DNA from: Desulfobotulus mexicanus
Lineage (GTDB): Bacteria > Desulfobacterota > Desulfobacteria > Desulfobacterales > ASO4-4
Length of the DNA: 64,000 nucleotides
NCBI RefSeq assembly: GCF_006175995.1
Contig: NZ_VDMB01000001.1
Location: forward strand, 186,001 to 250,000
Reading direction: 5' to 3'
Shown: positions 25,454-57,463 of the stretch, piece by piece
Position numbering within the stretch: the stretch's first letter is position 1
Layout: each line of letters begins with the position of its first letter
Position numbers and translations under genes: made by a program
Notes under the pieces: generated by a model
The model's input: the letters and a program-made list of their open reading frames with translations, nothing else
Databases searched by the model: none
What the model was told of the DNA's origin: nothing

Positions 25454-25657
25454 GATACTCCCCGATCCAGTCTGGTTAGAAGGTAAGCTTTATGCGCTTC
25501 TTTTTTAAGTTTGCAGTCGTATTATGCCATTCCTTAAAGGGCTGGATCGGTAATCAGAAAAGTTTAAAACAATAAAATTGTGTAAATGTTTAATGTGAAA
25601 AAGAAGAAGTAACTTTTAAGAAGAAAGGAAAAGGGGAGAACCCTTTTTTTGATTGCT

Positions 25658-26533
25658 ATGATAAAAGGCATTGTTCTTGCCGGAGGCTCTGGTACCCGAT
25701 TGTATCCCATAACAAGGGGTGTATCCAAGCAGCTTCTGCCTATCTATGATAAGCCTATGATCTATTATCCCATCTCTGTTCTTATGCTGGCGGGCATACG
25801 GGATATCCTTGTGATCACAACCCCGGAAGACCAGTCTTCCTACGAGAGGCTTTTGGGAGATGGTTCGGATTTCGGCATCAGCTTGAGTTATGCTGTTCAG
25901 GCCTCCCCGGATGGCCTGGCCCAAGCCTTCATCATTGGTGAAGACTTCATCGGAAAAGACAAGGTATGCCTGGTGCTGGGGGATAACATCTTTTACGGGC
26001 AGGGTTTTACACCCAAACTTAAAGAAGCCGCAGCCAGAGAAATAGGGGCCACAGTGTTTGGATATCAGGTGAGAGATCCTGAACGATTTGGCGTTGTAGC
26101 TTTTGATGAAAACAGGAGAGCCGTTTCCATTGAAGAAAAACCAGCCAGCCCTCAATCCAATTATGCTGTGACTGGTCTTTATTTTTATGATAATGAGGTC
26201 GTTCGGATTGCGAAGGAAGTAAAACCCTCGGATAGGGGAGAGCTCGAGATAACCAGCATAAATAAAGAATACCTGAAGCGTGAAACCCTGCATGTAGAGC
26301 TTCTGGGCAGGGGCTTTGCATGGCTGGATACGGGAACCCATGAAAGCCTTCAGGAAGCAGGTATGTTTGTGCAGACGATAGAAACACGGCAGGGGCTGAA
26401 GGTTGCCTGTCTCGAAGAGATAGCCCTGAATAATGGCTGGCTGAGTAGAGAAGATGTTTGCAAGGCAGGAGAAATGCTGAAAAAGTCTGGTTATGGCCAG
26501 TATCTGCTGAGGCTCTGCAGGGAGAAAACATGA
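25658..26533 (+). CDS. rmlA: Glucose-1-phosphate thymidylyltransferase
   Basis: A 291-residue nucleotidyltransferase beginning [17 protein letters not shown] with the signature GG-x-G-T-RL. It also has [28 protein letters not shown] and [11 protein letters not shown]. It forms dTDP-glucose from glucose-1-phosphate and dTTP. It is the first gene of the surface-polysaccharide locus. A TTG at 25649 lies closer to the GGGGAG ribosome site, so the true start could be nine bases earlier. RmlB, the next enzyme, is not in the window. Confidence 0.95.
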
Positions 26534-26952
26534 CACTTCTTAATTGGATTGATTTTGTTGTACGGGGTGATGAAAGAGGCTCCCTTGTGGCCATTGAGGG
26601 CGGAATGAATATCCCCTTTGAGATAAAAAGGGTGTACTATATTTTCGGAACCGATGAAGGCGTTGCCAGAGGGTTTCATGCCCACAAATCCCTGCAGCAG
26701 GTGGCAGTATGCGTCAGTGGAAAATGCAGGATGGTTCTGGACGATGGAAGAATCCGCGAGGAAGCCTGGCTGGATTCTCCGTCAAAGGGCCTTCTGATTG
26801 GAGATATGATCTGGCGGGAGATGCATGATTTCAGCCCGAACTGTGTATTGATGGTGTTTGCCAGTGAGTATTATGATGAAGGGGATTATATCCGGGATTA
26901 CGATACTTTTTTAAATGGGGTTTGTGATGTACATCATTCATCCTCTTGCTGA
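26530..26952 (+). CDS. fdtA: dTDP-4-oxo-6-deoxyglucose 3,4-ketoisomerase (FdtA/WxcM-like cupin)
   Basis: A 140-residue cupin with the family pattern [45 protein letters not shown] and the later [18 protein letters not shown]. The paired histidines in FHAHK are the active-site bases. It would turn dTDP-4-keto-6-deoxyglucose into the 3-keto isomer for later amination at C3. Its ATG overlaps the rmlA stop. FdtA (galacto product) and QdtA (gluco product) cannot be separated by eye. Confidence 0.9.
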
Positions 26953-27400
26953 TGTAAAAACGGATAAGATAGGCACAGGCACCCGGATATGGCAGTATGC
27001 GGTTGTTTTTGAGGATGCTGTTCTGGGTGAAGACTGTAATATCTGTGCCCATACCCTTATAGAAGGTGATGTCATCATCGGAGACAGGGTGACGGTTAAA
27101 TCTGGTGTGTATTTATGGGATGGTGCACGTATTGAATCTGATGTTTTTATTGGTCCCAATGCTACATTCACCAATGATCCCATGCCAAGATCAAAGGTAT
27201 ATCCTGATCGTTTTTTCGGTATAACAATCAGGAGGGGAGCCAGTATAGGTGCCAATGCAACCTTGCTTCCCGGGGTGACAGTTGGTGAATATGCCATGGT
27301 TGGTGCAGGGACTGTTGTTACAGAAGATGTGGAACCGTATGCTGTTGTTGCGGGTAACCCTGCCAGAGTTTTGAGGTTTTTAAGCGGAAAGTCTTTTTGA
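26927..27400 (+). CDS. Hexapeptide-repeat acyltransferase (FdtC/QdtC-like sugar N-acetyltransferase)
   Basis: A 157-residue left-handed beta-helix protein with repeated [LIV]-G-x4 turns: IGTGTRIWQYAV, GEDCNICAHTLI, IGDRVTVKSGVYLWDG, IGANATLLPGVTVGEYAMVGAG, and the closing NPARVLR. It fits the N-acetyltransferase that finishes dTDP-3-acetamido-3,6-dideoxyhexose. It overlaps the fdtA end by 26 bp. The next pathway gene, the aminotransferase, is separated by an inserted antitoxin gene. Confidence 0.88.
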   Translation: MYIIHPLADVKTDKIGTGTRIWQYAVVFEDAVLGEDCNICAHTLIEGDVIIGDRVTVKSGVYLWDGARIESDVFIGPNATFTNDPMPRSKVYPDRFFGITIRRGASIGANATLLPGVTVGEYAMVGAGTVVTEDVEPYAVVAGNPARVLRFLSGKSF

Positions 27401-27563
27401 TGTATTGAGATCAGAACAGCTTTAAATAAATAGGCGGATCCCATTCATGCCATAAATTTAAGGCCCAGGTAAAAAGTGGTAGAATGGATGTGCCTGAAGC
27501 TTATCGGTATCTGGAATCCAGAAGCATTGAAGTCATTTTTTGTAAGAGACAGGACTTAGAAAG

Positions 27564-27857
27564 ATGAAGGTCAAAGTCATAAGACAGGGCTCTAGTTATG
27601 TTATTCCGATTCTGGAAAATACGGATCTGGAGCTGGATTCTTTTTATGTGGAGATTGACCCCTCCCTTGAAGCCATTTTGTTTCGGGTTGGTCAAAGCGA
27701 TACCATCGCTAAGCTCAGGGAGCTCAATGATATCTTAGGCGGGGATGACTATCTTTCATTCAAGCTGAAACACCTTCCGGAAAACTATAACCATACCAGC
27801 AGCCGCAGTGATGACGACATTCTTGCCGAAGCCCTGATGGAAAAATATGGAAAATAA
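27564..27857 (+). CDS. Putative antitoxin (AbrB/MazE-like) upstream of the PIN-fusion gene
   Basis: A 97-residue protein. The N-terminal [14 protein letters not shown] resembles a swapped-hairpin AbrB strand, although the rest ([20 protein letters not shown]) does not match closely. The C-terminus [15 protein letters not shown] is acidic and helical, like the toxin-binding tail of many antitoxins. It overlaps the next gene by 11 bp, the usual antitoxin-toxin arrangement. It interrupts the sugar-gene order between the acyltransferase and the aminotransferase. The call rests mainly on this position. Confidence 0.6.
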
Positions 27858-29373
27858 ATTTCTCATAGATGTGAACATCGCACTGGATATTCTGCTGGAC
27901 AGGCTGGATACATCTCCAAGAATCTATGAGCTTTTTCAAAAGCTGAAAGCTCTTCCAACTATTTACCTTTCTACCTCACAGTTGCATACCATAGCTTTTA
28001 TTTTTTTTAAGGAAGGCAGAAAAAGCAGACCCCTGCATATCCTTCAGGAGGAATGGCAGCTTTTTTTAAAATTTTTTACCTTGATAAAAACACCTGCCTA
28101 TCTGGATGTGAATGATCCCCTGTTTCAAAGAGACACGGAGGACTACCTTATCGAGGCATCCGCAAAAATTGTCGGGGCAAAAATCATTACCCGTGATACG
28201 GCTTTCCTTCGTGCTTCCGAGTATGCGGTTTCCATAGATGATTTTTTATCCCTTCCGGTTCAGGAAGAAAAGAACATTGCTTTTCTGGATTTGAAAGCCA
28301 TCAACGAAGCCCATGCCTCGGAGCTTGAAAGGGCCTTTGACGGGGTACTGCATAGCGGCTGGTACATTCAGGGGCAGCAGGTGAAAGCCTTTGAATCGGA
28401 ATTTGCTGCATACTGCGGAACGCCTTTCTGTATTGGCGTTGCCAACGGCCTGGATGCCCTGACCCTGACCCTCAGGGCCTGGAAGGAAATGGGCAGGCTC
28501 AAGGAAGGGGATAAAATTCTTGTACCGGCCAATACTTACATTGCCAGTATCCTTGCCATCACGGAAAACCGCCTGATCCCCGTACTGGTGGAGCCGGATC
28601 CTGCAACTTTTAATATCAGTCCTTCAGAAATTCTTAAATTTCTCGATTCAAAAACAAAGGCTATTCTGCCTGTGCATCTTTACGGGCAGATGGCGGATAT
28701 GCCAGCCATTAAGGAAATTGCGGAAAAGAATGATCTGTTAGTGCTGGAAGATGCGGCTCAGGCCCATGGTGCCATCATCGGCGGTAAAAAGGCAGGAAGC
28801 TGGGGGGATGCGGCTGGTTTCAGTTTTTATCCGGGAAAAAACCTTGGGGCTTTAGGCGATGCCGGAGCTGTTACCACCCATGATGAAGAACTGGCCCTCA
28901 CCATCCGTGCCCTTGGCAATTATGGAAGCCATATAAAGTATGAAAACCTTTATCAGGGTGTCAACAGCAGGCTGGATGAAATACAGGCCGCCCTTTTGAG
29001 GGTGAAGCTTTTCCATTTGGATAAGGACATTGAAAAAAGACAGGCTGTGGCAAGGCAGTATATGGAGGGCATAAATCACCCTGAAATTTTACTTCCTGCC
29101 TGGAAGGAGGATGCTTCCCATGTTTTCCATCTTTTCGTACTGCGCTGTCAGAGACGGGATGCTTTGCAGGCATATCTCGCTGAAAAGGGTATTCAGACCC
29201 TGATCCATTATCCTGTAGCTCCACATAAACAGAAAGCTTATGGGGCATGGAAGGGGATTAGATTACCCCTTACGGAGCAGATTCACAGGGAGGTTTTGAG
29301 TCTGCCTATGGGATCGATAATCTGTAAAATTGATGTTTTTGAGGTGATAAAGGTTCTCAATGAATTTAATTAA
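27847..29373 (+). CDS. fdtB: PIN-domain toxin fused in frame to FdtB-type sugar aminotransferase
   Basis: The 508-residue frame has two parts. Residues 1-135 form a PIN-like nuclease domain ([15 protein letters not shown] with Asp8; [26 protein letters not shown] with Asp96/99 and Asp117), although the usual glutamate near residue 45 is not evident. From about residue 144 ([20 protein letters not shown]) it is a full DegT/DnrJ-type PLP aminotransferase with PLP lysine 331 in [14 protein letters not shown]. That part matches FdtB, which makes dTDP-3-amino-3,6-dideoxygalactose. FdtB normally starts where the second part begins. No in-frame ATG or GTG lies at the junction, though AGGAAGA followed by ATT is there. 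The end overlaps wzx by 14 bp. Confidence 0.85.
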
Positions 29374-30604
29374 GACATCTTTTCTTACCTTTATAGCCAC
29401 AGCAGTCAAAATGATTTCCGGCCTTGTGATCAACAAGGCTGTTTCTATTTATATTGGCCCGTCCGGGCTTGCACTGGTGGGACAGTTTCATAATTTTATG
29501 CAATTAACGATGACCCTTGCGCAAGGTGCCATCAATAGCGGTGTGACAAAATATACTGCAGAATATGGTAAGGAAAGCTTAAAGATTCCAATGCTGTTTA
29601 GCACAGCGGCCAGAATAAGTATTGTGTGCTCATTGGTGGTTGGTGTTGCAACCATTGCAGCAGCACCATGGCTTTCTGAGTGGTTTTTAAAATCAGGGGA
29701 TTATGCATATGTTTTTGTGGTTTTTGGTTTTACAGCTGTGCTTTTTGTTCTGAATAATTTTCTTTTATCCATTATTAACGGACTTAAAGAGATAAAAACT
29801 TTTGTAAGTATTAGTATTATACAAAGCCTTTATAGTCTTGTTTTTACATCTGTTCTTATAGTTTTTATGGGCTTGCACGGTGCTTTGCTTGCCCTTGCAA
29901 CCAATCAGTCTGTTGTTTTTTTTGTAGTTTTATACCTCCTTCGGAAACATTCCACTATCCGTCTTTATAATTTTTGTAAGGGTTTCAGTAGGCCGGAAGG
30001 TAAAAAACTCCTGGGTTACGCTGCCATGACCCTGACTTCTGCAGCAACGGTTCCTGTATCCCACCTTATTATACGAAATTTTTTGGGAGAAACCCTTGGA
30101 TGGGATGAGGCTGGTTACTGGCAGGCTATCTGGTATATTTCCACCATGTACCTCATGGTTGTGACAACATCTTTAAGCATCTATTACTTGCCAAGGCTTT
30201 CAGAGATTAAAGAGAAGGCTGAACTTCGCAGAGAAATATTGAATGGCTACGCAATTATTTTCCCTATAGTAACATTGCTGTCAGCAGGAATTTTTATCCT
30301 GAAAGATTTTATTATCTTACTTCTTTTTACTCCGGATTTTTATCCCATGCGGGAACTTTTTCTGGTTCAGCTTGTGGGGGATGTTGTAAAGATTGTCTCT
30401 TGGTTGCTAGCTTATTTAATGTTGGCTAAGGCTATGATCAAGGCTTTTATCTGTACGGAGATTATTTTTGCAGCTTCTTTTGTGGCTTTAACCTTCTATT
30501 TTGTAGGTTTTTATGGACTGGTTGGGGTTACATATGCTTATGCAACTAATTATGCATTGTATTTATTGATAATGATTTGGGTTGTTAAAAGTGAAATTTT
30601 ATGA
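29360..30604 (+). CDS. wzx: O-antigen flippase (Wzx/WzxE-like)
   Basis: A 414-residue polytopic protein with about 10-12 membrane helices and the MATE/PST-type N-terminus ([25 protein letters not shown] with [15 protein letters not shown]). This matches O-antigen translocases that flip lipid-linked repeat units to the periplasm. Codon use is more AT-rich than the housekeeping flanks, as usual for O-antigen genes. Its start lies inside the end of the aminotransferase gene, so the locus is transcribed as one unit. Confidence 0.88.
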
Positions 30605-51064: not shown

Positions 51065-52231
51065 ATGAGTAAGGAACGTATGCTGTTTACATCGGAGTCC
51101 GTGACCGAAGGTCATCCTGACAAGGTGGCTGATGCCATCTCCGATGCCATTCTTGATGCCATTATGGCCCAGGACACCCGCTGCCGTGTGGCCTGTGAAA
51201 CCCTTGTCACAACGGGAATGGCCATCATTGCCGGGGAAATTACCACATCCTGCTATGTGGATATGCCCCAGATCGTTCGCAATACCATCCGGGAGATCGG
51301 CTACAATTCCTCGGATATGGGCTTTGACTGGCAGACCTGTGCCGTCATGACCAGTATTGATCAGCAGTCTCCGGACATTGCCCAGGGCGTGGACCGGGAA
51401 AGTGAAGACGAGCAGGGTGCCGGGGATCAGGGCCTTATGTTCGGTTTTGCCTGCAATGATACACCTGAGCTGATGCCTGCTCCCATCATGATGGCCCATC
51501 AGCTGACCCGCAGGCTGGCTGCCGTACGCAAGGAAAGCACCATAGATTTTCTTCGTCCTGATGGTAAAGCCCAGGTTACTGTGGAGTATGAGGGATGCAG
51601 GCCTTTGCGTGTGGATGCGGTGGTGCTTTCCACCCAGCATGCGCCTGATGTGCCCTATGCGGTACTGAAGGAAGCGGTGATGGAAGAGGTGATCCGTTCC
51701 GTGATTCCGGCCCATATGCTGGATGAAAAAACCAAGTATTATATTAATCCCACGGGTAAGTTTGTGATTGGTGGACCCATGGGAGACTGCGGTCTTACGG
51801 GCCGGAAGATCATTGTGGATACCTATGGTGGACAGGGAAGCCATGGGGGAGGGTGCTTTTCCGGCAAGGATCCTTCCAAGGTGGATCGAAGTGCTTCCTA
51901 CATGGGGCGTTATATAGCTAAAAATATTGTGGCTGCGGGTCTTGCGGATAAGTGCGAGATTCAGGTGGCCTATGCCATCGGTGTGGCGGATCCGGTTTCC
52001 GTTCTGGTGAACTCCTACGGAACGGGCAAGGTGTCTGATATGCGTCTGGCAGAGATTGTACGCGCCGTATTTAATCTGCGTCCTGCTGCCATTGTGCGTC
52101 AGCTGAATCTGCTTCAGCCCATTTACCGCCAGACCTCAGCCTATGGTCACTTTGGCCGGAATGAGCGGCCCGGCTTCACCTGGGAGGAAATCGATAAGGT
52201 GGAAGCCCTGAAGGCGGTAGCCGGTATCTGA
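51065..52231 (+). CDS. metK: S-adenosylmethionine synthetase
   Basis: A 388-residue enzyme: [40 protein letters not shown]-type block (here [16 protein letters not shown]), [21 protein letters not shown] and [34 protein letters not shown]. All match MetK. It forms SAM from methionine and ATP. AGGAG precedes the ATG. The 90 bp between repeat D and the gene hold the promoter; no SAM riboswitch was recognised. Confidence 0.98.
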
Positions 52232-52538
52232 TCGTTAAGGCTAGTTCCTGGAATGGAGAAACCTTTTGACTCCTCCTTCCTCTGGGAAAGGCCCGGGGTG
52301 AGGGTTTTGTTTTCGGGTATATTTAATCTCGGAAGTAGCCTAAGGACGTTTGTTATCGAAGAATGAAAAAGGGGTGGCCTTCTGGCTGCCCTTTTTTGTA
52401 TGATTTTTGTTTGGTCTCACAAAAGCTGCATTTTCCCCTAATCTTTTCTGAACAATCCTCCCCTATCTTTCTTCTCGATGATGTTCTGACACCCATTCCG
52501 GGGTTTTAGTTACAACAAATGAATAAGGAGAAGATAAG
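52232..52538. other. Intergenic region between metK and pstS
   Basis: About 305 bp holding the metK-side terminator (52366-52397) and then the presumed phosphate-regulated promoter of pstS. No clear Pho-box direct repeat could be read by eye. An AAGGAGAAG ribosome site precedes the pstS ATG. Confidence 0.5.
52366..52397 (+). terminator. Rho-independent terminator downstream of metK
   Basis: AAAAAGGGGTGGCC pairs imperfectly with GGCTGCCCTTTTTT around a TTCT loop. The 3' arm ends in the six-T run. Confidence 0.85.
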
Positions 52539-53354
52539 ATGCTGAGAAAAGCCGGTCTTTTTTTTACTGCCCTTGCCTTCCTTTGCTTGGGAAGTGGTGC
52601 AGCCTTTGCTGAAAGGCTTTCCATTAACGGTTCCACTACCGTATTGCCCGCAGCCCAGAAGCTTGCCGAAGCCTTTATGAAGGTCCGCCCCGATGTGACG
52701 GTTTCCGTTGCAGGCGGTGGTTCCGGTAATGGTATCAAAGCTATTGTTGATGGTACCACCCACGTTGGCAATTCCTCGCGTTTTATCAGAAACAGTGAAG
52801 TCAGGATGGCAGTGGAAAAGGATACCTATCCGGTTCCCTTCCGCATTGGTCTTGATTGTATCGTGCCCGTGGTTCACCCGGACAATCCCGTTAAAGATCT
52901 TTCTCTGGATCAGCTGAGGGATATGTACACGGGTAAAATCCGCAACTGGAAAGAAGTTGGTGGCAGGGATATGCGCGTGGTGGTTATTTCCAGGGACTCT
53001 TCATCAGGAACCTTTGAATCCTGGGGAGATCTTGTGATGAACAAGCAGCGCGTGGTGCCCAGTGCCCTGACGGTTCCTTCCAATGGAGGGCTGGTTCAGG
53101 CCGTTACCACAACACCCGGTGCCATTGGTTACATTGCTCTGGGTTATGTGAACAAGGATGTGAAGATGGTTTCTGTGGATGGGGTTATGGGCAGTGAGGA
53201 AAATACCATCAGCGGTCGCTATCCCATTTCAAGACCACTTTTCATGTTCACCAGGGGCTGGCCTGAAGGTGTGACGCTGGATTTCATTAATTTTGTTTTT
53301 TCCAAAAAGGGACAGGAAGAGGTTAAGGCTTCCGGCAGCATACCCGTTTACTGA
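52539..53354 (+). CDS. pstS: Phosphate ABC transporter substrate-binding protein
   Basis: A 271-residue periplasmic protein with a signal peptide (GLFFTALAFLCLGSGAAFA). It has the phosphate-binding blocks INGSTTVLPAAQKLAEAFM, VAGGGSGNGIKAIVDGTTHVGNSSR, DQLRDMYTGKIRNWKEVGG, SRDSSSGTFESWGDLV and GAIGYIALGYV. It is the short PstS type common in anaerobes and Gram-positives. First gene of the pst-pho operon. Confidence 0.96.
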   Translation: MLRKAGLFFTALAFLCLGSGAAFAERLSINGSTTVLPAAQKLAEAFMKVRPDVTVSVAGGGSGNGIKAIVDGTTHVGNSSRFIRNSEVRMAVEKDTYPVPFRIGLDCIVPVVHPDNPVKDLSLDQLRDMYTGKIRNWKEVGGRDMRVVVISRDSSSGTFESWGDLVMNKQRVVPSALTVPSNGGLVQAVTTTPGAIGYIALGYVNKDVKMVSVDGVMGSEENTISGRYPISRPLFMFTRGWPEGVTLDFINFVFSKKGQEEVKASGSIPVY

Positions 53355-53384
53355 TCCTTGCAGGGAATAAAAATAATGAAGGAT

Positions 53385-53428
53385 GCGGTGTGTGGAGGAT
53401 CTTTTCAGGCGCACACCGCTTTTTTTAC
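53385..53428 (+). terminator. Hairpin with T-run between pstS and pstC
   Basis: GCGGTGTG (53385-53392) and CACACCGC (53412-53419) form a perfect 8-bp stem followed by seven or eight Ts. It would partly stop transcripts after pstS, which fits the need for more binding protein than membrane subunits. Confidence 0.8.
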
Positions 53429-53449
53429 ATTCATCATAAGGAACTTGGC

Positions 53450-54343
53450 ATGGCAGTTTTACGCAATAGGACGGAAAAAGCGATTCACTGGCTTTTTTTG
53501 GGTATTGCCACGGTTTCCATCGGTATTCTTGTTTTGATTATGTTTTTTCTGTTCCATGAGGGCCTGCCCATTTTTAAGACCGTCACGGTGCAGGAGTTTG
53601 TTCTTGGCCATTACTGGTACCCGACCGATGATCCTTCGGATTTCGGTATACTTCCCCTCATTGTGGCCTCCCTCTTTGTTACTCTGCTTTCCGCTATGAT
53701 TTCAATCCCCCTGGGGGTTATGACTGCTGTGTATCTTTCTGAAATTGCATCCAGAAAGGTTGCTGAAATTGTCAAGCCCGTTGTAGAGCTGCTGGCTGCT
53801 CTTCCCAGTGTGGTAATTGGTTTTTTCGGAATGGTGCTGGTGGGGCCTTTTCTTCAGAAAACTTTTGGTATTCCCATAGGTCTGAATCTTTTCAATGCCT
53901 CTTTGATGCTGGCCTTTATGTCTGTTCCCACCATTTGCTCCATCGCCGAAGATGCCCTGTATTCCGTTCCTGATTCCTTAAGGGAAGCATCTCTGGCCCT
54001 TGGGGCCACAGAGCTGGAGACCATTGTCAAGGTGATTGTTCCGGCAGGTCTTTCGGGTATCAGCACTGCCATTATTCTGGGCATGAGCCGGGCCATAGGT
54101 GAAACCATGGTGGTTCTCATGGTGGCTGGCGGGGCAGCCATGCTGCCGGGTTCCATCTTTGATCCGGTGCGGCCCATGCCGGCAAGTATTGCGTCAGAAA
54201 TGGCCGAGGCTCCCTTCAGGGGAGAACATTATCACGCCCTTTTTGCCATTGGCATAGTGCTTTTTCTCTTTACCATGGCCTTTAACCTTGTGGCGGACCA
54301 GATTGCACAGCGTTACAGGCAGAGCGGGGAGGCTTCATTATGA
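53450..54343 (+). CDS. pstC: Phosphate ABC transporter permease PstC
   Basis: A 297-residue membrane protein with six helices. The BPD-permease EAA block is SLREASLALGATELETIVKVIVPAGLSGI; ISIPLGVMTAVYLSEIA and VELLAALPSVVIGFFGMV are typical of PstC. The start at 53450 (MAVLRNRTEK) is chosen over a longer frame that would overlap the terminator hairpin. It overlaps pstA by ATGA. Confidence 0.95.
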   Translation: MAVLRNRTEKAIHWLFLGIATVSIGILVLIMFFLFHEGLPIFKTVTVQEFVLGHYWYPTDDPSDFGILPLIVASLFVTLLSAMISIPLGVMTAVYLSEIASRKVAEIVKPVVELLAALPSVVIGFFGMVLVGPFLQKTFGIPIGLNLFNASLMLAFMSVPTICSIAEDALYSVPDSLREASLALGATELETIVKVIVPAGLSGISTAIILGMSRAIGETMVVLMVAGGAAMLPGSIFDPVRPMPASIASEMAEAPFRGEHYHALFAIGIVLFLFTMAFNLVADQIAQRYRQSGEASL

Positions 54344-55266
54344 AAGATTTGTCTGAAGAGTCCCTTTCTGATGAAAACGGCGGGATAAAAGGGATCTTTG
54401 AGAAGGGTGCAGGCCTTGGTGGACGGCGCAGAATGCAGGCACTGTGGTTTGGTTTCTTCCGGGGCGCAGCCCTCATCAATGGCTTTGCCCTTGGTCTCAT
54501 TCTTTTTTTCATGTTTTCCCGGGGATGGCAGGCCATTTCATGGGAGTTTCTCACCCAGCCTCCCAGGGACTCCATGACAGCGGGGGGCATTTTTCCCTGC
54601 ATAATAGGTACCCTTGGTCTTGCTCTGGGGGCCATTGCCGTGGCACTGCCCATCGGCGTGGCCTCAGCCATCTATCTCAATGAATATGCCAGCTCAGGGA
54701 AAATCATGCGGATCATTCGCCTGGGCATCAGTAACCTTGCAGGTGTTCCTTCTGTGGTTTTCGGGCTTTTCGGCCTGGCTTTCTTCTGTATCATCCTTGG
54801 TATGGGAGTAAGCCTTGCTGCGGGGGCGCTTACCCTTGGTGCCATGACATTGCCGGTGATCATTGGTGCCACGGAAGAAGCCCTGAAATCCGTTCCGGAT
54901 ACCTACAGGGAAGCTTCTCTGGGGCTGGGAGCCACCCGGTGGCAGACCATCTGGCGGGTGGTCCTGCCTTCTGCCCTGCCGGGAATTCTCACAGGAGCAA
55001 TTCTTGGGATCAGCCGGGCTGCCGGGGAAACGGCTCCCATTATGTTCACCGCAGCGGTTTTCTTTACTCCGAAGATTCCTTCTTCCATCATGGATGAGGT
55101 CATGGCTCTGCCCTATCATATTTATGTTCTGGCAACGGCTGGCACCAGTATAGAGCAGACCAGACCCCTGCAGTATGGAACGGCCCTTGTGCTCATTGCC
55201 CTTGTATTGGGCATGAATCTGGTGGCGATTATTTACCGTTCAAAGCTGCGTAAGAAAATGCGTTAA
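54340..55266 (+). CDS. pstA: Phosphate ABC transporter permease PstA
   Basis: A 308-residue membrane protein: a charged N-terminus, then six helices. Includes AIAVALPIGVASAIYLNEYA, ISNLAGVPSVVFGLFGLAFF and the EAA block TYREASLGLGATRWQTIWRVVLPSALPGIL, which mark PstA. It pairs with PstC to form the inner-membrane channel. The start overlaps pstC's stop (ATGA). Confidence 0.95.
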   Translation: MKDLSEESLSDENGGIKGIFEKGAGLGGRRRMQALWFGFFRGAALINGFALGLILFFMFSRGWQAISWEFLTQPPRDSMTAGGIFPCIIGTLGLALGAIAVALPIGVASAIYLNEYASSGKIMRIIRLGISNLAGVPSVVFGLFGLAFFCIILGMGVSLAAGALTLGAMTLPVIIGATEEALKSVPDTYREASLGLGATRWQTIWRVVLPSALPGILTGAILGISRAAGETAPIMFTAAVFFTPKIPSSIMDEVMALPYHIYVLATAGTSIEQTRPLQYGTALVLIALVLGMNLVAIIYRSKLRKKMR

Positions 55267-55316
55267 GAATGAAGGAAAAAGTTTTTTTACAGGTATGGTG
55301 AGATAAAGGGTGAGCC

Positions 55317-56078
55317 ATGGAAAAAAAATGGAAAATGCAGGCAAAGGGGCTGAATTTTTATTACGGTAATTTTCAGGCACTTTACGATATTGATCTTGGC
55401 TTTCGGGAGAGGGATGTAACGGCACTGATAGGTCCTTCGGGTTGTGGTAAAAGTACCTTTTTGCGCTGTCTGAACCGGATGAATGATCTGATTCCCATCA
55501 GTCGGGTAAAGGGAGAAGTTCTTCTGGATGACAATAATATTTATGCTCCTTCCGTGGACGTGGTTCGCCTCCGAAGGAAAATTGGCATGGTATTCCAGAA
55601 GCCTAATCCTTTTCCAAAGACGATTTTTGAGAATGTGGCCTACGGACTTCGGGTGAACGGCGTGCGGGATAAAAATATCATTGCAGGGCAGGTGGAAAAA
55701 AGCCTGCGGCAGGCGGCACTCTGGGAAGAAGTGAAGGACAGGCTGCATGAATCCGCTCTGGGCATGAGTGGTGGTCAGCAGCAGCGTCTTTGCATTGCAA
55801 GGGCCCTTGCCGTGGAACCGGAGGTGCTGCTCATGGATGAACCTGCCTCTGCCCTTGATCCTCTGGCCACCCAGAAGATTGAGGAGCTGATCCATGAGCT
55901 AAAGCGCTTTTATTCCATCATCATCGTCACCCATAATATGCAGCAGGCGGCCCGGGTGTCCGATACAACGGCTTTTTTTTATATGGGTCGTATTATAGAA
56001 GTGGATGAGACCGATACTATTTTCACAAATCCCAAAAACAAACAGACAGAAGAATACATAACGGGCCGTTTCGGCTGA
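55317..56078 (+). CDS. pstB: Phosphate ABC transporter ATPase PstB
   Basis: A 253-residue ABC ATPase with an intact Walker A (GPSGCGKST), Q-loop [23 protein letters not shown], signature [15 protein letters not shown], Walker [13 protein letters not shown] and switch His in [11 protein letters not shown]. The [12 protein letters not shown] and [14 protein letters not shown] segments are diagnostic of PstB. It energises phosphate uptake and contacts PhoU. Confidence 0.98.
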
Positions 56079-56094
56079 TATTGGAGGGGGAAAT

Positions 56095-56754
56095 ATGGGA
56101 TTATTTCTGCATCATGAACTGGAACGTCTGAAAAAAAATCTTCTGTCTCTGGGAACCCTGGTGGAAGACCGGGTGCATACGGCCTGTGCTTCCATTGCGG
56201 CCATGGATTCTGAGATGGCAAGGTTTGTCGTGGAGGCGGATCATGAAATTGATGATATGGAAGTTGAGGTAGAAGAGGAGTGTCTTAAGATCATAGCTTT
56301 GTATCAGCCAGTTGCCGTGGATCTGCGCTTTCTTGTCTGCGTGATTAAAATAAATAATGATCTGGAGCGTATCGGAGATCTGGCCGTCAATATAGGCAGA
56401 AGGGTTATGACCATGGCAGCCAGAAGAGCCATGCCCTTTTATGATTATTCAGAAATGTCTGCCAAGGTTGGGCTGATGCTTAAAAAAAGTCTGGACGCCT
56501 TTGTCAATATGGATGCCTCCCTTGCCAATTCCGTTCGTGCCATGGATGATGAGGTGGACGCCATGAATACGGCGGTTTATGGCCGGGTGAAGGAGCGGAT
56601 TCGGGAAAATCCTGATGATGTTGCCTATCTCATCAATATGTTTCTGATTTCACGTCATCTGGAGCGCATGGCGGACCATGCCACAAACATTGCCGAAGAG
56701 GTGATTTATGTGATTGAAGGGCAGATTGTCCGCCACAGCCAGATTAAGGTATGA
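56095..56754 (+). CDS. phoU: Phosphate signalling protein PhoU
   Basis: A 219-residue all-helical protein of two three-helix bundles, each with the metal-binding E/DxxxD pattern. Markers are EADHEIDDMEVEVEEECLKIIALYQPVAVDLRFLVCVIKINNDLERIGDLAVNI and FLISRHLERMADHATNIAEEVIYVIEG. It links PstB activity to PhoR and represses the Pho response when phosphate is plentiful. It lies 16 bp after pstB. Confidence 0.96.
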   Translation: MGLFLHHELERLKKNLLSLGTLVEDRVHTACASIAAMDSEMARFVVEADHEIDDMEVEVEEECLKIIALYQPVAVDLRFLVCVIKINNDLERIGDLAVNIGRRVMTMAARRAMPFYDYSEMSAKVGLMLKKSLDAFVNMDASLANSVRAMDDEVDAMNTAVYGRVKERIRENPDDVAYLINMFLISRHLERMADHATNIAEEVIYVIEGQIVRHSQIKV

Positions 56755-56764
56755 AAGGGTTGAA

Positions 56765-57463
56765 ATGGCAAAGGAAGATATTCTTGTGGTGGATGATGAG
56801 GAGGATATCCTTGAGCTCATCCGTTATCACCTGAGCCGTGAGGGTTATGGCGTGCTGCTGGCGGGTAGCGGCGAGGAAGCCCTGCGGCTGGTGCGGGATC
56901 ATTCTCCGGATCTGATGGTGCTGGATCTTATGCTTCCCGGTGTGGATGGCCTTGAAGTGACCCGCCGCATACGCAGGCAGCCTGGAGATTCCAGTCTTCC
57001 CATTGTCATGCTCACGGCCAAGGGAGAAGAGGCCGATGTGGTGACGGGCCTTGAGCTGGGAGCAGATGATTATGTGACCAAGCCCTTCAGCCCCAGGATT
57101 CTTCTGGCGAGAATCCGTTCGGTTCTGAGGCGCAGAAAGCTGCTGGGGGTGGAAAAGCCCGATGAAGGGGAAAAAGCTCTGGATGCAGGGGGCCTTCTCA
57201 TCCATCCGGGTCGCCATGAGGTGCTGGCCGAGGGTGAGTCTTTGTCTCTGACCTGGTCTGAGTTTCAGATTCTCCATTTTCTTGCCCGCCGTCCGGGCTG
57301 GGTGTTTACAAGGACACAGATTGTGGATGCCATCCATGGTGATGATTATCCTGTGACGGATCGCAGCGTGGATGTGCAGATTGTAGGTCTGCGTAAAAAA
57401 CTGGGGGTCCATGGAAAACGAATAGAAACGGTACGGGGTGTTGGCTATCGTTTCAGGAAGTAA
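56765..57463 (+). CDS. phoB: Phosphate regulon response regulator PhoB
   Basis: A 232-residue OmpR-type regulator: receiver (VVDDEEDILELIRYHL, phospho-acceptor in LMVLDLMLPGVDG, MLTAKGEEADVVTGLELGADDYVTKPFSPRILLARI) and winged helix (WSEFQILHFLARRPGWVFTRTQIVDAI, DRSVDVQIVGLRKKLG). The start at 56765 (MAKEDILVVDD) is preferred over the frame overlapping phoU. Confidence 0.95.
   Translation: MAKEDILVVDDEEDILELIRYHLSREGYGVLLAGSGEEALRLVRDHSPDLMVLDLMLPGVDGLEVTRRIRRQPGDSSLPIVMLTAKGEEADVVTGLELGADDYVTKPFSPRILLARIRSVLRRRKLLGVEKPDEGEKALDAGGLLIHPGRHEVLAEGESLSLTWSEFQILHFLARRPGWVFTRTQIVDAIHGDDYPVTDRSVDVQIVGLRKKLGVHGKRIETVRGVGYRFRK

Follow-up and report, generated by a model that had tools for sequence, protein, structure and literature searches.

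Toxin-antitoxin modules are usually free-standing gene pairs, and the benefit they bring on a chromosome is disputed. In type II modules of the VapBC kind, the toxin is a free PIN-fold protein of ~135 amino acids. On the enzyme side, the known structures of sugar aminotransferases of the WlaRG/QdtB/FdtB type begin at the aminotransferase domain. A survey of type II toxin-antitoxin systems lists PIN toxins with several antitoxin families and, in its passages on PIN neighbourhoods, names a pfam00155 aminotransferase as a PIN neighbour that is "part of a larger conserved gene association" (Makarova et al., 2009; PMC2701414). What those passages describe are neighbouring genes rather than fusions, and the aminotransferase is not of the DegT family. 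Literature searches returned no description of a PIN-DegT fusion, and an earlier mention in a classification of the PIN superfamily (10.1093/nar/gkx494) is possible. Here, such a fusion is described from Desulfobotulus mexicanus, in a 64,000-nucleotide stretch of DNA that is, as a whole, termed the window.

Positions 27847-29373 of the window form one unbroken frame that starts with ATG and encodes 508 amino acids, a PIN (VapC-fold) domain fused to a complete aminotransferase of the WlaRG/QdtB/FdtB type (Table 1). The aminotransferase is recognised by Pfam, with PF01041 spanning residues 158-504 (profile positions 5-359 of 360). Residues 1-148, scanned alone, score under the Pfam thresholds for PIN models (PF01850, E 0.01; PF13470, E 0.039) and the PIN assignment therefore draws on relatives and on a structure model. 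Of 29 fused relatives, all match PF01041, and 16 have a PF13470 (PIN_3) hit at E≤0.01, the strongest at 1.5e-13. The AlphaFold2 model of residues 1-138 (pLDDT 92.8, pTM 0.86) has PIN/VapC proteins as its top Foldseek rows in the PDB, and comparison with VapC chains gives 7by2_B at Z 12.9 (rmsd 2.5, 114 aligned), with 1y82_D and 7by3_B tied. For the second domain, the nearest solved structures are WlaRG (5u23_B, 55% identity, TM(target) 0.97) and QdtB (47% identity), both determined as complexes. Residue K331, which we take to be the PLP-binding lysine within an SFYPxKNLG stretch, is nearly invariant in 29 fused proteins and is aligned in 7n63. The window protein thus shares with the WlaRG/QdtB/FdtB enzymes a full-length domain and the company of rmlA, fdtA and acetyltransferase genes, and differs from them by an added 138-residue PIN domain and a 7-residue junction. 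An earlier sequence-only reading of this DNA had both domains in a single frame, which holds, and had the enzyme begin at about residue 144, which gives way to residue 146 (base 28282). Its FdtB label stands as far as a sugar aminotransferase of the DegT type; sequence does not separate FdtB from QdtB or WlaRG, and the product may be dTDP-Fuc3N (FdtB) or dTDP-Qui3N (QdtB/WlaRG).

Table 1. Features of the fusion locus, in window positions.
Feature	Position	Strand	Basis
rmlA-type nucleotidyltransferase, first gene of the aminosugar block	25649..26533	+	PF00483, 4.1e-78
fdtA-type sugar isomerase	26530..26952	+	PF05523 FdtA, 6e-50
Hexapeptide acetyltransferase	26915..27400	+	PF00132, 4.8e-24
Type B antitoxin gene, broken remnant	27391..27537	+	DNA similarity of 84.6-87.2% to L009 and L010
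Type A antitoxin-like gene, 97 aa, 11-base overlap with PIN start	27564..27857	+	Family tracks PIN
PIN (VapC-fold) domain, residues 1-138, D8, D99 and D117 present	27847..28260	+	PIN_3 relatives, model, VapC matches
Junction, residues 139-145	28261..28281	+	DNA similarity to the PIN-swapped congener G002 resumes at 28282
DegT/DnrJ/EryC1/StrS sugar 3-aminotransferase (WlaRG/QdtB/FdtB type), residues 146-508 and stop	28282..29373	+	PF01041, 3.4e-99; 5u23_B, 55% identity
Polysaccharide flippase, overlaps end of fusion gene	29360..30604	+	PF01943, 6.6e-12

With rmlA, fdtA and acetyltransferase genes upstream and a flippase, a GDP-mannose dehydratase and an epimerase gene downstream, the locus is a surface-polysaccharide locus, in which the pathway neighbours rmlA, fdtA/qdtA and acetyltransferase all stand beside the aminotransferase. 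The fdtA-type frame is open from 26458, and its start was set at the ATG at 26530 by comparison with relatives; the type B remnant corresponds to a profile match that contains a stop (G000:C1:213454-213567). Across the fdtB clade, the gene order is fdtA and acetyltransferase, antitoxin-like gene, fusion. In several members of a second large clade, genes for a Gfo/Idh dehydrogenase and a hexapeptide acetyltransferase precede the fusion, an order familiar from pathways of the wlbA-wlbB-wlbC type. The genome that holds the window (G000) encodes seven relatives of the aminotransferase at E≤1e-10; because the top three are PIN fusions (identity drops to 31-37% for the remaining four), the aminosugar, if produced in this genome, is probably made by a fused protein.

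The search for PIN plus DegT/DnrJ architectures that the sequence-only reading had called for returned 30 fusions in 24 genomes in all, of which G000 contributes three and the others are spread across Desulfobacterota and Pseudomonadota; PIN profile searches of 395, 398 and 389 genomes were among its sources. Two more fusions came from an antitoxin search after counting and lie outside all counts (G454, G417), and a truncated one (G197, L018) is outside the 30. It should be noted that counts over 28 rows exclude L045 and L049, whose 5' ends are cut by the contig, and that L017, which contains unknown residues, is absent from the 29-row alignment (A7) and from the 59-row PIN tree. The aminotransferase tree excludes G468_a and G058_C55, which are short, and L110, L113 and L121. 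In the respective assemblies, G468_a has a broken aminotransferase frame and G149 a broken antitoxin, and both are described only; the G058_C55 aminotransferase frame ends early. The stand-alone PIN comparison set consists of 32 of 44 loci tried, three of which (L064, L066, L070) are distant. In G000 itself, further fused copies lie on contig 35 (PIN 93% identical to that of the window) and contig 2, and both congeners searched, D. alkaliphilus (88% identical) and G002, carry the fusion. A scan of genome contigs found fusions at seven of seven loci, including records from Thiohalocapsa marina, Methylococcaceae, Geobacteraceae and Mariprofundaceae. Two genes joined by an assembly or sequencing error, a rival for which no support was found, would have to be joined identically in independent assemblies, named genomes included, and this explanation is ruled out for practical purposes. 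The missed stop or frameshift between the domains for which the sequence-only reading had proposed a check is likewise contradicted, since the second copy in G000, D. alkaliphilus and members of other families and phyla share the joined frame.

The PIN-aminotransferase architecture is rare, and unfused close relatives are the rule. Among the 76 matches listed in a class-wide PIN search, 14 lie in frames of 511-555 amino acids, one in a frame of 309 and the rest in frames of at most 179; translation of all 14 long frames revealed an aminotransferase in each. Approached from the enzyme side, 198 genomes gave 99 aminotransferase matches at E≤1e-70, three of which are PIN fusions (two of these in G000) and 96 of which are unfused to PIN, as judged by frame length and, for long frames, by translation. 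Nine of the 99 lie in frames of at least 500 amino acids: three PIN fusions, one fusion to a hexapeptide acetyltransferase, and five without a recognised upstream domain. Chance long frames were considered as a source of such architectures and set aside, as three of these nine proved on translation to be PIN fusions and one the hexapeptide fusion. The latter (L140, G218:C5), in which the acetyltransferase is joined in frame to a DegT aminotransferase, resembles the window protein in adding an N-terminal domain to a DegT enzyme in a sugar context; its added domain comes from the same biosynthetic pathway, which the PIN domain does not.

In a quick aminotransferase tree of 60 rows, the 28 fused rows need at least five changes, or at least three when only well-supported branches are counted. 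Nearly all fused PINs separate from stand-alone PINs in the PIN tree, and those with a KTP motif form one group (98/95) that sits on three aminotransferase clades (G297/G265, G325 and the Desulfobotulus group), an incongruence that would be expected if the halves are exchanged. The third fusion in G000 (L091 4245-5792, G000:C2) belongs to another aminotransferase clade, has an unrelated-looking PIN and is conserved in the congener G002 (L092, G002:C28). A tandem array on G468:C27 (~52100-57400; L105/L165) holds, in this order, an antitoxin with a stand-alone PIN, two antitoxins each with a PIN-aminotransferase fusion, and an orphan antitoxin; the PINs of its two fusions differ, their aminotransferases are very similar, and the first is frame-broken in the assembly. 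The sequence-only reading had supposed a local event, a toxin-antitoxin pair inserted before fdtB with loss of the toxin stop and the fdtB start, and this does not fit a fusion that occurs three times in G000, in both congeners, on several aminotransferase clades and in distant phyla. As for mobile origins, two PIN domains matched none of 72,556 plasmid records, and eight of 50,697 phage records matched the aminotransferase part only (residue 134 or later). The window proteins had no PADLOC match. In another fusion (L094 1593-3140, G149), the PIN part weakly matches PADLOC PDC-M11A (E 0.00042), a candidate defence protein of similar length.

Comparison within Desulfobotulus indicates where the exchange would occur. 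DNA similarity between the window and G002 covers 25661-26912 and 28282-30604, with two short antitoxin pieces in between, and is lacking over 27770-28281, which comprises the antitoxin tail and the PIN. The boundary at 28282 coincides with the start of the aminotransferase domain, at the opening base of codon 146; across the swap the aminotransferase parts are 88-90% identical and the PIN parts 31-34%. The acetyltransferase differs in all three Desulfobotulus species: D. alkaliphilus has one of the GNAT type, and the hexapeptide gene of G002 shows no DNA similarity to that of the window. The contig 35 copy (L008, G000:C35) lies at a deletion that took away the acetyltransferase and the 3' portion of fdtA, and its antitoxin and fusion are intact except for D117N. 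The best reading would be that sugar aminotransferases have acquired a VapBC-like cassette as their N-terminal module, and that this cassette is exchanged as such. A separate FdtB start at the junction, raised earlier as an option from an AGGAAGA followed by ATT, is not conserved: the same positions read AGAAAGA and GTT in D. alkaliphilus. Rare use of a separate start is possible, and in G002 an in-frame ATG encodes the second residue of the aminotransferase part.

For the antitoxin that the sequence-only reading had placed just upstream, the presence of an antitoxin-like gene is supported. Among the 28 loci for which upstream sequence exists, an antitoxin-like open reading frame overlaps or abuts the fusion start in 22, is broken in one (G149) and is missing from five (G297, G325, G265, the contig-22 copy of Thiohalocapsa, and G531). 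These 22 frames encode ~80-130 amino acids, and their ends fall from 6 bases upstream to 20 bases downstream of the PIN start. The window member matches no Pfam or NCBIfam family, its relatives give only weak sub-threshold matches (RelN, E 0.0084; AF2212-like, E 0.044), and a profile search of the PDB with the family returned no match. A tail motif, [LMA]x[EK]K[YFH], chosen after inspection, occurs in 14 of the 22 fusion-linked frames versus 10 of 579 control frames; of the 32 antitoxins that accompany stand-alone PINs, 22 carry it. Antitoxin and PIN distances are correlated over the 22 loci (r 0.88; 0.73 for 17 dereplicated loci; 0.64 as a partial correlation on the aminotransferase, permutation p 1e-4), and antitoxin and aminotransferase distances, given PIN, at 0.15, with aminotransferase distances taken from the first 70 residues only. 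By this measure, antitoxin divergence tracks the PIN domain and hardly the aminotransferase. An antitoxin-anchored search of 345 genomes gave 10 matches in five genomes. Eight lie directly upstream of fusions, including the two new loci (G454, G417), and the remaining two, both in one G468 array, are upstream of a stand-alone PIN and orphan, respectively. In the three Desulfobotulus genomes, antitoxin matches occur at fusions, except for a short stop-containing fragment on G001:C64 (E 0.0015). Three congeneric loci each contain an antitoxin that has no PIN of its own, and each time it is decayed: type B is broken in the window and shortened to 74 amino acids in D. alkaliphilus, versus 99 for the intact gene in G002, and type A has a diverged tail in G002, with dN/dS of 0.30-0.34 versus 0.11-0.18 for other type A comparisons (NG86). 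Given the likeness of the tails, the co-divergence with PIN, the results of the anchored search, the placement of matches at fusions and the decay of PIN-less copies, "antitoxin" is the best name for the small upstream gene.

Both halves of the fusion are under similar purifying selection. In pairs among three close copies, NG86 estimates of dN/dS are 0.152, 0.154 and 0.198 for the PIN and 0.142, 0.130 and 0.146 for the aminotransferase, and the PIN part of these copies contains no frameshifts or stops. As its dN/dS is near that of the enzyme, the PIN is kept, which disfavours the "inert tail" that had been among the options proposed earlier. A neutral accident, in which a toxin-antitoxin pair inserted in the window locus and left the PIN as such a tail, would accord with the decay of acid residues in some copies; set against it are this selection and the recurrence of the fusion on several aminotransferase clades and in distant genomes, and it is very improbable.

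The active sites are less uniform. The acid trio of the window PIN (D8, D99, D117) is intact; a complete trio (D8, D99 and D117, or N117 with D120) is present in 18 of 28 fusions versus 30 of 32 stand-alone PINs (p 0.008). Many VapCs carry a fourth acid, a glutamate in the third helix. This residue is absent from the window PIN, as it is from most stand-alone PIN_3 rows. Losses include D117N in the contig 35 paralogue, D99A in D. alkaliphilus and D99G in G002, and in all three the antitoxin and purifying selection are kept, which suggests that something besides nuclease activity is maintained there. An antitoxin stands beside 18 of 18 intact trios versus 5 of 10 decayed ones (Fisher p 0.0026; p 0.013 with G149 counted as antitoxin-less), and absence of the antitoxin represents only three changes on the PIN tree, too few for a tree-aware test. 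All five antitoxin-less loci thus have decayed acid residues, a pattern that would follow if a PIN with nuclease activity depended on its antitoxin. At two loci with decayed sites and no antitoxin (L015, L019), the gene directly upstream is, by eye, ClpP/SDH-type serine protease-like.

Set beside VapBC, the locus has the same PIN fold, with VapC as its best structural match, the same acid trio, a small antitoxin-like gene directly upstream and overlapping, and an antitoxin tail common to fusion-linked and stand-alone PIN antitoxins. It differs in that the toxin is the N-terminal domain of a sugar enzyme rather than a free protein, that the N-terminal part of the fusion antitoxin reaches no described family, and that acid residues are lost in 10 of 28 fusions. 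Judged from sequence, it is laid out as a VapBC-like pair in which the toxin has turned into an N-terminal aminotransferase module, and in principle it could act as an addiction module; membership in VapBC fails on the separate toxin.

Retention of the locus by addiction is, at close to even odds (about 0.48), the likeliest original role of the antitoxin-PIN-aminotransferase module. A VapC-like PIN toxin domain would form a permanent N-terminal part of a nucleotide-sugar aminotransferase, within one operon in which the preceding, overlapping gene would encode the cognate antitoxin. The C-terminal tail of that antitoxin, common to antitoxins of stand-alone PINs, would bind the PIN and keep it inactive, and the aminotransferase would be active within the same chain. 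If the block were lost or split, the antitoxin would decay first and the fused RNase would harm the cell, and surface-sugar genes would thereby be retained as one unit. Where acid residues have decayed, the module may remain as an antitoxin-binding or structural part, with the antitoxin also gone in some lineages. The fused frame, its recurrence, the adjacent antitoxin-like gene, the co-divergence with PIN, the replacement of the pair and purifying selection on both halves are what the sequences establish at their own level. An original toxin role is favoured since the trio is intact in most fusions and the antitoxin is lost only beside decayed sites, and the window copy, with D8, D99, D117 and an intact antitoxin, is predicted to be antitoxin-restrained and potentially toxic. 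Against addiction stand the ten fusions in which the trio is incomplete and the contig 35 copy, in which the loss of the acetyltransferase and of the 3' portion of fdtA indicates that the block is not always whole.

The main rival, which we consider less likely, is regulatory: the antitoxin-like protein would repress its own operon and be titrated by the fused PIN in the style of conditional cooperativity, so that the amount of aminotransferase sets expression and nuclease activity is unneeded. In its favour is the set of five loci that keep the antitoxin beside decayed acid residues (the copy on contig 35, D. alkaliphilus, G002 C17, Methylococcaceae and G739); with purifying selection on PIN and antitoxin, they speak for regulation or binding in those copies at any rate, and the overlap of the antitoxin and fusion genes is in keeping with it. 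A full trio in 18 fusions would be needless for binding alone, though, and for a family without a PDB profile match, DNA binding is only putative. It is improbable that the PIN serves as an oligomerisation or stability module of the aminotransferase, with the upstream frame as a chaperone-like partner or a relic. The full-length fusion is modelled confidently as a single unit (pLDDT 93.1, pTM 0.89) and five antitoxin-less, acid-decayed fusions still keep the frame, but nearly all of the 99 homologues at E≤1e-70 manage without a PIN, different PIN sequences are exchanged on one aminotransferase, and the antitoxin co-diverges with the PIN.

An extension of the addiction reading, itself unlikely on present evidence, is that antitoxin-PIN cassettes recombine before sugar aminotransferases in surface-glycan loci and serve as an allele lock, so that they punish partial import of foreign alleles or loss of the block. 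With the toxin covalently held in the enzyme and matched only by its own upstream antitoxin, recombination would part toxin from antitoxin. If this were true, the stretch from acetyltransferase through antitoxin to PIN, which varies where the fdtA and fdtB parts on either side are conserved, would be inherited as a unit, cell-surface type would be tied to toxin-antitoxin identity, and a class of toxin-armed biosynthetic enzymes would be recognised.

The locus presents a toxin domain that is inseparable from a metabolic enzyme of surface-sugar synthesis, and an antitoxin-toxin pair that appears to be exchanged on an enzyme that remains in place. Automatic annotation going no further than the strong DegT hit would miss the PIN domain, which in the window scores below the Pfam thresholds. 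The fusions offer a concrete system on which chromosomal addiction, or the control of a biosynthetic operon by an antitoxin, could be tested, and in which natural pairs of intact and decayed active sites provide built-in controls. In these organisms, surface-sugar genes may be coupled to a built-in toxin.
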